Origin: [Clostridium] ultunense DSM 10521
GTDB lineage: Bacteria; Bacillota; Clostridia; Tissierellales; Tepidimicrobiaceae
Length of the DNA stretch: 64,000 nucleotides
Direction: 5' to 3'
Assembly (NCBI RefSeq): GCF_000511955.1
Contig: NZ_AZSU01000005.1
Location: 112,682-176,681 of the forward strand
In this document: positions 28,614 through 40,227 of the stretch, piece after piece
Numbering within the stretch: the first letter of the stretch is position 1
How the letters are laid out: each line of letters begins with the position of its first letter
Translations under genes and position numbers: made by a program
Notes under the pieces: generated by a model
Told to the model about the DNA's origin: nothing
What the model saw: the letters and a program-made list of their open reading frames with translations, nothing else
The model's database searches: none

Positions 28614-29786
28614 TTACAGTAATTTTTCTGCTGAGTAATTAATACCAATAGCTCCTAAAGGTGCAGTAATAAGTATGGATAATACTGCTAATGCTAAAAT
28701 TATTTCTCCTGACTCTACACCTAAAGACAATGGTACCGCTCCAATTGCAGCTTGGACCGTTGCTTTTGGTGTATATGAAATTATACAAAATAGTCTTTCT
28801 CTCCAATTTAAATCTGTGTTTAATAAGGAAATCAGTACTCCTATACTTCTTCCTAATAGCCCAATCAAGATAATTACAATTCCCGTTTTCCCAGCTTCAA
28901 ATGCTATTCCTACATTTACTTGAGCACCCACTAATACAAATAATAATATTTCTGCAAAAACCCATAGTTTGTTAAATTTTGCTGCTAGCCTTTTACCTAC
29001 TAAAGGCATTTTCTCCATTACTACAAAACCTATGGTCATAACTCCTAACAAAGAAGCTATTTGAATTCGCATTTTTAATAAATTTTCAGTCTCAGTTAAT
29101 AAAATAGCTAGACCTAATATTAATAATACTTTTTTAGTATCTCTCATATGATATTTTTTAAAGACTATTATGGATACAATTCCAATAACAATACCAGCTA
29201 TGATACCCAATAATATAGATATTGGTATGCTTAGTATCTGTATTCCAATATTTAAATGTGTACCACTATATAATCCTAAAAAGGCGCTAAATATAGTAAT
29301 AGCAAAAACATCATCGATAGAAGCACCTGTTAATATTAAAGTAGGTATACCCTTGGTTTCCCCTATATTATTTTCAATCAATTTTAACATAGAAGGAACT
29401 ACTACTGCTGGAGAAACTGCTGCAATTACAAATCCTAAAATCCCACCTTGGATAAAGGAGAAATTAAGAAGCTTTGTTGAAATAAAAGCAATTGTAAATC
29501 CTTCTAATATAGCTGGTATAAAACTCATTTTGATTGCAGTAATTCCGTTCTTTTTTAATGCTTTTTTATCAATTCCAAAGCCTGCTCTTAATAAAATAAT
29601 TATTAATGCAATTTTTCTCAAATCTGCCGATGCATTAATTATATCTTTTTGTAGCAAATTTATACCATAAGGTCCTATAATAATACCTAAAATAAGCATC
29701 CCCAGTAATCCTGGTAACTTAAGCTTTTCAAACAGTTTGTTTGCTGGTAATCCTAATAATAGAATAGCTGCTAAGCTTATTGCCAA
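28614..29786 (-). CDS. Cation:proton antiporter (CPA family) under fluoride riboswitch control
   Basis: 390 residues from a TTG at 29786 with AAGGAG 7 bases upstream. The longer frame to 29867 runs back through the riboswitch terminator and is not coding. About 12 membrane segments, with GLLGMLILGIIIGPYG near the start and the core TGASIDDVFAITIFSA carrying the paired acids of Na+/H+ antiporters. It exchanges Na+ or K+ for H+. The riboswitch links it to fluoride stress: pumping or pH adjustment when HF enters the cell. Confidence 0.88.
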   Translation of the reverse strand: MAISLAAILLLGLPANKLFEKLKLPGLLGMLILGIIIGPYGINLLQKDIINASADLRKIALIIILLRAGFGIDKKALKKNGITAIKMSFIPAILEGFTIAFISTKLLNFSFIQGGILGFVIAAVSPAVVVPSMLKLIENNIGETKGIPTLILTGASIDDVFAITIFSAFLGLYSGTHLNIGIQILSIPISILLGIIAGIVIGIVSIIVFKKYHMRDTKKVLLILGLAILLTETENLLKMRIQIASLLGVMTIGFVVMEKMPLVGKRLAAKFNKLWVFAEILLFVLVGAQVNVGIAFEAGKTGIVIILIGLLGRSIGVLISLLNTDLNWRERLFCIISYTPKATVQAAIGAVPLSLGVESGEIILALAVLSILITAPLGAIGINYSAEKLL

Positions 29787-31941: not shown

Positions 31942-33117
31942 CTACCATTCTAATAATCTTCTTTCCCCTTCTAATTCCCTTATTCCTGTAATATCTTGAC
32001 TAACCTCCAGTACTCCTTTATATTCATCTTTTGAATTCTTTAATGCAAAATACTGGATTAATATCTTTCTCCCCTTCAAGTCTATCCAAAATCTAGCTGA
32101 ATCCTTACTACCATCTTTAAATGCTTCAATTATTTTATTTACTACATCTACGCTTTCTGAAGGGTGACAATTCTCCACATCACGGCCAATGACGGCTGGT
32201 GAACGTGGAAATATTCTATCCTTAGGCCTTGTAAAAAATCTAACTTTATTGTTTTCATCTACAAAAGTAAGGTCTACTGGCAAAGCGTTTAATAGAAGCA
32301 TCATCTGTTCAAAATTCAATTCTCCAGTATTGGTTTTGAACTTCGTTGCCTCTAACCCATATAAATCTAATTTTTCTTTCTTCTCTAATGCTGGCTTTTG
32401 AATAAATGGAAATCCATAATCCATACTTTGAGCATGCATATCTTCCCATTCCTCATCACTAATTACTTCCATAGATGCTGGAAATAAAATAAGTTTTTCT
32501 TTCTTTACTATACCAAGTAAAGTAAAGAACAAACTACCAATTTCTTTATTAAATTCTTCAACAGACATATTTTCAGATTCTAATAAATTTTCTACTCTCT
32601 TTATATTTTTTCTTGCCTCATCATGTAATGACCACATAATAGTTAGTCCATGGAACCTGTCCATTTTTTTCTCTAAATAAGGAAAAAGTATATTCTCCTT
32701 CTTTAAATAATGTTGATTAAATTCCTCTAGTTTCTTAACACGAACTAATAATTCATCCTTTTTTATCTCCACTTCTTTGTTTAATATTATTTTCTTTATT
32801 TCTTCTAATTTTTTCGTAAGGGCTTCATTTTCTTTTATTAAATAATATAAAAAACTGTCTTCTTTTGGCTTTTTCCATGAATAATTGCTTAAAGGTTTAT
32901 GAAATACATTTATAACCTTATCTAATATTTTAAGTACATCCTTTGGTGTATACCCTTTTTCTAATTTTGAGGTAAATATTTCAAAACATTCTTGTGGAGT
33001 TACAGTTTCAATATCTTCTTTGTATTTAAGATATAAAGCTTTCCCATCTCCATTATCCACAACTCCTTGAACGTATTCCTTTAAACTTTCAATTTTTTTC
33101 CTATCTATATCCACCAT
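31942..33117 (-). CDS. DUF438 / hemerythrin-like / PAS domain protein
   Basis: 391 residues in three parts. An N-terminal DUF438 helical domain (about 1-75) is followed by a hemerythrin HHE-like bundle (about 110-215; His/Glu residues in EEFNQHYLKKENILFPYLEK and WSLHDEARKN). The C-terminal PAS domain (about 265-390) has FVDENNKVRFF and VIGRDVENCHPS. It is probably a cytoplasmic oxygen, NO or redox sensor without an output domain. It lies 73 bases downstream of a glutaredoxin-like selenoprotein gene on the same strand, so a shared redox function is plausible. Confidence 0.88.
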   Translation of the reverse strand: MVDIDRKKIESLKEYVQGVVDNGDGKALYLKYKEDIETVTPQECFEIFTSKLEKGYTPKDVLKILDKVINVFHKPLSNYSWKKPKEDSFLYYLIKENEALTKKLEEIKKIILNKEVEIKKDELLVRVKKLEEFNQHYLKKENILFPYLEKKMDRFHGLTIMWSLHDEARKNIKRVENLLESENMSVEEFNKEIGSLFFTLLGIVKKEKLILFPASMEVISDEEWEDMHAQSMDYGFPFIQKPALEKKEKLDLYGLEATKFKTNTGELNFEQMMLLLNALPVDLTFVDENNKVRFFTRPKDRIFPRSPAVIGRDVENCHPSESVDVVNKIIEAFKDGSKDSARFWIDLKGRKILIQYFALKNSKDEYKGVLEVSQDITGIRELEGERRLLEW

Positions 33118-33190: not shown

Positions 33191-33448
33191 TTAAACTATC
33201 AACTTTTTATAATCGAAAATAACCTGTTCCCCATCATTTATAACTATACAAGGAAGCCCTACCCTTCCTGCCTTTTTTATTTCATCAAATTCCGGTCTAT
33301 TATCCCTTATTTTTAAGAACTTCTTTAGGTATAACATATTTTCAGTAATATCTAAATATAAGAACTTAATATTGTTGTTGGAAAGATACTCTTTCGCTGG
33401 CTCACAATCTGGTCAATGTTTACTACCAAAAACAATTATTTTCTTCAT
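33191..33448 (-). CDS. Glutaredoxin-like selenoprotein (UxxC), read through an in-frame UGA
   Basis: An 85-codon frame from ATG 33448 to TAA 33191, with an in-frame TGA at 33415-33413 (codon 12). The peptide is MKKIIVFGSKH-U-PDCEPAKEYL..., then LDITENMLYLKKFLKIRD and RVGLPCIVINDG. It is a thioredoxin-fold glutaredoxin relative: the UGA falls exactly on the first Cys of CxxC, and GLP supplies the cis-Pro loop. A strong AGGAGGAG site precedes the ATG. The frame is otherwise open and uses host-like codons. Read literally it would be two fragments, which explains why ORF callers miss it. A single nonsense mutation is the alternative. Confidence 0.82.
33381..33415 (-). promoter_or_regulatory. Candidate bacterial SECIS element
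   Basis: Downstream of the UGA (33415-33413), GAAAG-AGUAU-CUUUC (33395-33381) forms a perfect 5-bp stem with a 5-base loop. The loop starts 22 bases after the UGA and has G as its second base. Bacterial SECIS hairpins are placed at about that distance with a G among the first loop bases. Confidence 0.55.
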
Positions 33449-33542
33449 TTACATCTCTCCTCCTAAGTAAATTATCTATATTTAATATATCATGGTCCTC
33501 CTAATTGGTAAATATATTAATAATGAATATTTAGAATAATAC

Positions 33543-38463: not shown

Positions 38464-40227
38464 TCATTTATTACTAATTATAGAATAGTTTTCAACTTGT
38501 ACTAAAGCCTTTTCATATATTTCCGACGGATAGTCAAGATATTCTAAAATTGCAATAGCATTTCTGCTTACACAAGGGCCTTTCCTCAATATGTAGTCAA
38601 ATATTATATCCTTACTTTTAATAGTTTCCTTAAAATGATAATTTTCATATTTATTGTTTACTAAACTTATAAGCTCTAAATCATGTGTGGCTGCAATGAC
38701 ACAAGAATTATTATTTATCATATAATTTAGTACTACACTGGCAGCACTAATCCTTTCAGCTGTATTAGTACCTCTAAATATTTCATCTAAAATACATAGT
38801 ATTGGTTCATCAGAAGCAATAGAGTCAATTATCCTCTTCAATGCCTTAGCTTCAGCCATAAAATAGCTATCCCCTTCAACAATACTGTCTGTAGTTCCAA
38901 TTGAAGTAAATAGTCTAAAATAAGAGGAAGTATAACCTTTAGCTAATACTATATTTAGAGTCTGAGCAAAGATTGAGTTTATGCCTATAGTCCGTAAAAA
39001 TGTAGATTTTCCTGATGCATTTGAACCTGTAATTAAAACCCCTTTATTATTAAATTCAAAAGTATAGGGTACTGGTTTTTCTAATAGGGGATGATACATT
39101 TTATCTACTTCCAAATAGAATCTACAGTTTTCCTTCCTAAGCTTAGGTTTAATAAAGTAATCTAACCCTGATGTATAGGAACTGACAGAAATATATGCAT
39201 CTATTTCACCAACTATTGTATACATTTTCAAAAAATCCTCTTTATTTTCATTTAACTGTTTAACAACTCTATAAAATACTTTTGGTTCTCTTAAAACAAT
39301 CATATTATAATAATCTATTAATAACTGAGCTTCTGTTTTTAGTTCATCGTTAAAGTTGATTTTAGAAATATTACGCTTTATCTTCTTGGTGTTTTGCAAT
39401 AACTCCTCTAAACTATTTTGATTTAATCCTAAACTATCTATGTTTAATTTCATAATATTTTCAGCACAATAAATAAGGTTTCCTAAATATTTAAAAGTTT
39501 CCATCTCTGCATATATTTTATGCTTGTTGCTATTATAAACCACAGTATTAACCATAAAAGTTAATATAAATATAGCAAACCCAATTCTAAGGTTAATTAA
39601 TAGCAATATCAATGATAAAAAAGGTATATAAGAAAGTATTTGGTATAAAGTTGAATAATTTGTATCTACATTCATACCTTCTTCAAAGTATGCAAATATC
39701 TCTTTACCCTCCTCTTTCCCCAGTATAGAAAGATAATACTGAATTCCTTGTGAAATATCACTATTATTTCTTAATCGGTCTATTATTTCATACCTTTTAT
39801 TAAGTGGATTTTCTTTAAATAAAGGTCTTCTCAGAATATAATATAGATATTGCATACCTGGCAAACTCATAGTATGATCAATTTTTGTAAATATAGTATC
39901 CATATCTAAATCATTCCATGTAATATCGTCTATTGAAAAATAAATATTTTCCCTTTTAGATAGAAATTTATGAAGATTATCTTTCCCAGAAAAATTAGCA
40001 TTATCTTTCCTTTCTTCTCCCCATAATTCACTAATAGCCTTTTTCTTACCCTTTACATAATTATTTCTTTTTATTTTTTGATATACTAATAAAAATATAA
40101 TTACTGAAATAGAAACTAAAAAAAACAAATAATTTACTTGTATTCCTAATGCAATTCCAACAATAATTAGAACTACAGATAAGGTTTCTATTATGAAATC
40201 TAAATCTCCTTTAGAAAATTGATTCAA
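38464..40227 (-). CDS. Membrane-anchored MutS-like ATPase
   Basis: 587 residues: two N-terminal membrane segments (about 12-50), possibly more around 200-245, a helical lever region and a C-terminal MutS ATPase with GSNASGKSTFLR, FTSIGTTDSIVEGDSYFMAE, CILDEIFRGTNTAERI and a final TH in AATHDLEL. It lacks the mismatch-binding domain, so it is not the repair MutS. Roles of this membrane branch are poorly known. The TTG start has GGAGG 10 bases upstream. Confidence 0.87.
   Translation of the reverse strand: MNQFSKGDLDFIIETLSVVLIIVGIALGIQVNYLFFLVSISVIIFLLVYQKIKRNNYVKGKKKAISELWGEERKDNANFSGKDNLHKFLSKRENIYFSIDDITWNDLDMDTIFTKIDHTMSLPGMQYLYYILRRPLFKENPLNKRYEIIDRLRNNSDISQGIQYYLSILGKEEGKEIFAYFEEGMNVDTNYSTLYQILSYIPFLSLILLLINLRIGFAIFILTFMVNTVVYNSNKHKIYAEMETFKYLGNLIYCAENIMKLNIDSLGLNQNSLEELLQNTKKIKRNISKINFNDELKTEAQLLIDYYNMIVLREPKVFYRVVKQLNENKEDFLKMYTIVGEIDAYISVSSYTSGLDYFIKPKLRKENCRFYLEVDKMYHPLLEKPVPYTFEFNNKGVLITGSNASGKSTFLRTIGINSIFAQTLNIVLAKGYTSSYFRLFTSIGTTDSIVEGDSYFMAEAKALKRIIDSIASDEPILCILDEIFRGTNTAERISAASVVLNYMINNNSCVIAATHDLELISLVNNKYENYHFKETIKSKDIIFDYILRKGPCVSRNAIAILEYLDYPSEIYEKALVQVENYSIISNK

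Follow-up and report, generated by a model that had tools for sequence, protein, structure and literature searches.

In a 64,000-nucleotide stretch of [Clostridium] ultunense DSM 10521 DNA (hereafter, the window), we identified a minus-strand gene that very probably encodes an 85-residue glutaredoxin-like thiol-disulfide oxidoreductase with selenocysteine (Sec) as its nucleophile, inserted at codon 12 under the direction of a putative SECIS element and acting through a UxxC cycle. Overall, this selenoprotein reading is supported by sequence evidence on the frame, its homology, the exchange of UGA and Cys codons, the Sec machinery, and the conservation of a hairpin. Feature coordinates are collected in Table 1.

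Table 1. Coordinates of the gene, its putative signals, and its downstream neighbor within the window
Feature	Position	Strand	Details
Glutaredoxin-like selenoprotein CDS	33191..33448	(-)	85 codons + TAA, codon 12 UGA decoded as Sec; Pfam PF00462, orthologs
In-frame TGA, codon 12	33413..33415	(-)	Position 1 of UxxC active-site motif
Ribosome-binding site	33459..33464	(-)	AGGAGG, 10 nt upstream of ATG
Putative bacterial SECIS core	33381..33395	(-)	GAAAG-AGTAT-CTTTC; 5-bp stem, 5-nt loop, G at loop position 2
Hemerythrin/PAS protein, downstream neighbor	31942..33117	(-)	391 aa; 73 nt after stop

The interrupted frame and its glutaredoxin domain

The conceptual translation (33448 to 33191, minus strand) reads MKKIIVFGSKHUPDCEPAKEYLSNNNIKFLYLDITENMLYLKKFLKIRDNRPEFDEIKKAGRVGLPCIVINDGEQVIFDYKKLIV, in which codon 12, within the motif KH-U-PDC, is the sole TGA; our ORF finder ends the frame there. 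An open frame of this kind is by itself no evidence for a selenoprotein, as single-TGA frames of such length are common. Because the six frames of the whole window hold 78 single-TGA stretches of at least 85 codons, the frame is uninformative, and the argument has to come from comparison with relatives and from the setting in the genome. What stands above chance is the Pfam match, the conservation of the UGA in 33 distinct orthologs, and the constrained synonymous codons across the hairpin. With Cys placed at codon 12, the protein matched PF00462 (Glutaredoxin) at 38.7 bits against a cut-off of 22.9 (E = 1.1e-9), and of 26 aligned members, 25 matched the same model with an E-value of 0.001 or lower. 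Three features were invariant in this 26-member alignment, namely residue 12 (Sec or Cys), Pro66, and an RD pair.

The AlphaFold2 model (pLDDT 91, pTM 0.81) has the order of elements of Trx/Grx proteins, with an extra helix in an inserted segment, and the predicted fold is glutaredoxin-like, its cis-Pro loop being assigned from the invariant Pro66. Purine-rich sites like AGGAGG lie upstream of nearly all orthologs. The first-pass annotation, which had described a minus-strand frame open for 85 codons apart from one UGA, that UGA in place of the first Cys of a CxxC, an otherwise intact domain including the cis-Pro loop, and a strong ribosome site before the ATG, was borne out on each of these points when the frame was re-read.

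Two small features were also seen near the start of the gene. A start-stop pair, ATG-TAA, lies between the Shine-Dalgarno sequence and the real ATG (AGGAGGAGAGATGTAAATG, window 33449-33454, minus strand); it also occurs in two other loci, L013 and L056, and in the Cys-form locus L023, and is absent from most orthologs. Approximately 45 nt upstream of the gene, at 33482-33502 (minus strand), there is another AGGAGG with a three-codon frame, ATG ATA TAT TAA, after it. L013 and L056 retain this mini-frame, which may be a leader or a product of chance.

The top PDB matches to the model were Clostridium oremlandii cGrx1 (7c10), BC3987, and archaeal glutaredoxins, with moderate TM scores of 0.6-0.7; thioredoxin-like proteins were also among the best matches. 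Both C. oremlandii proteins, cGrx1 and cGrx2 (4tr0), share the glutaredoxin fold with the window protein, and 7c10 is the best match in sequence and structure, although identity to the C. oremlandii glutaredoxins is only ~30%. In length, cGrx1 is closer to a Cys-type short glutaredoxin of the window's genome than to the Sec form. This second, short glutaredoxin (CPYC; L011 1501-1731, plus strand) is also more like cGrx1 than the Sec form is.

Sec-containing glutaredoxins have been described before. Those with UxxC were predicted from the Sargasso Sea metagenome in 2005 (PMC1088965) and reported in 2006 from Alkaliphilus metalliredigenes, Moorella, and Geobacter (PMC1794560), and a selenoprotein glutaredoxin of C. 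oremlandii has been characterized (Kim et al. 2011, as cited in PMC4333827 and PMC13188914). With the proteins of the 2005 and 2006 reports the window gene shares PF00462, UxxC, a small hairpin after the UGA with a G in its loop, and a host range in Clostridia. Unlike classical glutaredoxins, its subfamily carries an extra segment at approximately residues 38-60 that includes RDNRPEFD. The UXX-star selenoproteins (NF041212 and NF041114) are glutaredoxin-like and have Sec at the same place, but they lack the second Cys that gives the window protein its UxxC; matches to them were weak (E ~1e-5) and stayed far below the curated cut-offs (25.5 vs 66 bits and 25.0 vs 72 bits, respectively). No NCBIfam model scored over its cut-off for the window subfamily, and a literature search of incomplete coverage, in which the COG number and Tissierella were tried, found no paper naming it.

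Codon 12 and the downstream hairpin in orthologs

We searched 199 relatives, together with named genome contigs, and assembled a codon-level set of 38 distinct close homologs. Codon 12 was TGA in 33 of these, TGC in three, and TGT in two; TAA and TAG did not occur at this site in the set. Two remoter homologs, L062 and L063, have TGT. The UGA form is present in independent isolates and metagenome-assembled genomes from several families, the named isolates including Tissierella pigra, Acetoanaerobium pronyense, and Sedimentibacter acidaminivorans, and a same-genus relative carries a gene identical to the window copy over its full length. An identical protein is encoded by the cultured relative Clostridium sp. 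Cult1. SelA was found in 45 of 46 relatives tested, Cys-form carriers among them; therefore, loss of the Sec system does not account for the Cys forms. In one genome (G014, contig 31), a Cys form (28881-29132) and a UGA form (38647-38895) lie ~10 kb apart, and it is the Cys form that adjoins a hemerythrin/PAS gene.

The putative SECIS follows the UGA after a 17-nt spacer, and its first loop base is nucleotide 23 after the UGA (22 nt from UGA to loop). Positions 2-3 of the loop (AGUAU) are GU; the hairpin can also be drawn with a 3-nt loop and a 6-bp stem. The published bacterial SECIS model specifies a loop of 3-9 nt, a stem of 4-16 bp, a UGA-loop distance of 16-37 nt, and a G at loop position 1 or 2, with G or U as the usual next base (PMC13188914). 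The GAAAG/CUUUC hairpin conforms to the loop, stem, G-position, and distance rules of this model, but it falls short of the model's energy threshold of -7.5 kcal/mol, which is a screening threshold and not a biological definition. Folding gave -3.9 kcal/mol for the hairpin alone (z -2.9), -5.8 kcal/mol in a 50-nt context (z -1.0), and -7.4 kcal/mol in 76 nt with unrelated pairs included, so the stem is thermodynamically weak. The long lower stem in the 50-nt fold was discarded as unconserved, extensions past the 5-bp core being sporadic.

Conservation makes a stronger case for the putative SECIS than do geometry and energy, and supports it. All five core pairs form in 31 of the 33 UGA genes, with four and three pairs in the other two. 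In the Cys orthologs, only 2-4 pairs form and the core is lost or weakened in 5/5, a contrast that rests on only five sequences, three of which look closely related. When 21 UGA genes were aligned, the core was paired in 98% of cells vs 27-79% for slid versions of the stem, and in two sequences both sides of the outer pair have changed. Because the stem hardly varies, there is little formal covariation: it was seen at one pair of five, and 23 of 500 shuffles scored as high.

Synonymous codon choice over the stem points the same way. Leu22 is encoded by CTT in 33/33 UGA genes, vs 12% elsewhere in the same genes; Glu20 is GAG in 32/33 (25% elsewhere), and Ala18 is GCG in 20/22 (10% elsewhere), with the caveat that p-values for these codons take related sequences as independent. 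In a set thinned to 26 genes below 85% DNA identity, codons 22, 20, and 19 ranked lowest in synonymous entropy among 59 columns, and at other conserved Leu columns codon choice varies freely. The constraint over the stem is selection on the RNA, as far as sequences that remain related can show.

Selenocysteine machinery and alternative readings of the UGA

We surveyed the genome (3.2 Mb, 12 contigs) and found that its Sec system is complete and that further genes in it need Sec. A tRNA-Sec with anticodon TCA lies on contig 5 at 93882-93974; a second match over the cut-off of the tRNA-Sec model turned out to be tRNA-Ser(tga). The genes selB (363 bits), selA (625 bits), and selD (379 bits), all over their NCBIfam cut-offs, adjoin tRNA-Sec on the same strand, and this selD-selA-selB-tRNA-Sec block is ~50 kb from the glutaredoxin gene on the same contig (the window starts at 112682). 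Near its start, selD extends upstream through an in-frame TGA (KASG-U-AAK; L009 12164-13230, minus strand). The ORF finder called this gene from an internal TTG, and SelD is itself a selenoprotein here. GrdA has an in-frame TGA in CFVU, and each of three GrdB-like genes has one TGA.

The halt of the ORF finder at codon 12, along with the many single-TGA frames in the window, would also fit a decayed glutaredoxin pseudogene in which the UGA is a real stop. Against this, the same UGA recurs across several families in otherwise open and conserved frames, the remaining orthologs have Cys rather than TAA or TAG, and the same-genus relative has a protein 100% identical to that of the window. We rejected decay on this ortholog pattern and consider it extremely improbable. 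The Cys codons in some orthologs might instead hint at a sequencing or assembly error that turned TGC or TGT into TGA, but independently assembled genomes, such as those of the isolates named above, contain the same UGA; these rule out such an error, the chance of which is virtually nil. If a suppressor or a recoded genetic code made the UGA specify Trp or Cys, the full-length protein would likewise result. This alternative is highly improbable given the complete Sec system and the other classic UGA selenoproteins of the genome, the conservation of a SECIS-like hairpin with the UGA, and, for Trp, the alignment of residue 12 with a catalytic Cys.

Sec insertion is thus our preferred reading of codon 12. 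The first-pass annotation had proposed a hairpin with a loop G at a distance suited to a SECIS, and both its spacing and its conservation with the UGA agree with that description. Its suggested comparisons came out in favor of a selenoprotein as well: alignment with Cys homologs revealed 33 UGA and five Cys codons at one site, close relatives had only these codons there and no random stops, and selA, selB, selD, and tRNA-Sec were all found.

Proposed cycle, gene context, and significance

We infer Sec insertion in vivo and catalysis, as well as the nature of the physiological substrate and reductant. In the proposed mechanism, the hairpin shortly downstream of the UGA would recruit SelB carrying Sec-tRNA-Sec, and Sec would be inserted at codon 12. 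Sec12 would then attack an oxidized substrate, and Cys15 would resolve the selenenylsulfide. Glutathione made by the cell is doubtful as a reductant, judging from TIGR01435 only (glutamate-cysteine ligase related), which had no match in the genome for gshA/gshF. A thioredoxin reductase does score over its cut-off. Because of these two observations, thioredoxin reductase or a different thiol is a likelier reductant than endogenous glutathione. In C. oremlandii, the Sec-glutaredoxin is reportedly paired with a Sec-containing MsrA. Such a pairing is unsupported here, as the single MsrA match is of the Cys type with no in-frame stop. Somewhat speculatively, the subfamily with the RDNRPEFD insert could be a distinct, unnamed selenoprotein family of Tissierellia/Clostridia that operates independently of glutathione, draws reducing power from thioredoxin reductase or some other thiol, and acts on a dedicated target.

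The hemerythrin/PAS gene downstream had been read as suggesting a redox unit. The neighbor itself was confirmed on the same strand, and co-transcription is possible, but the unit found little backing: an intact hemerythrin/PAS gene follows the glutaredoxin gene in only three loci, namely the window, the same-genus relative (L041), and the Cys-form L016. Partial matches adjoin the glutaredoxin gene in L042 (4243-4404, 54 residues) and L018 (1324-1452, 43 residues), which suggests loss of the neighbor there. These loci, together with the short distance in the window, would speak for a single redox or oxygen-sensing unit in which the hemerythrin/PAS protein has the Sec protein as its dedicated partner. 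Against this, most other loci have unrelated neighbors, and in several genomes no hemerythrin/PAS gene adjoins the glutaredoxin gene. We consider such a partnership unlikely. A conserved neighborhood was sought across the loci and not found, and PADLOC gave no matches.

The window gene almost certainly joins the already known Sec-glutaredoxins as a conserved, genuine selenoprotein. Standard gene calling splits it at the active site, and ordinary gene finding would miss the selenoprotein. Its 33 UGA and five Cys orthologs in close relatives amount to a compact natural experiment, in which replacement of Sec by Cys is accompanied by loss of the hairpin. The finding raises the question of how a glutaredoxin-like selenoprotein is reduced where the bacterium is seemingly without glutathione synthesis, and it enlarges the selenoproteome of anaerobic amino-acid fermenters.
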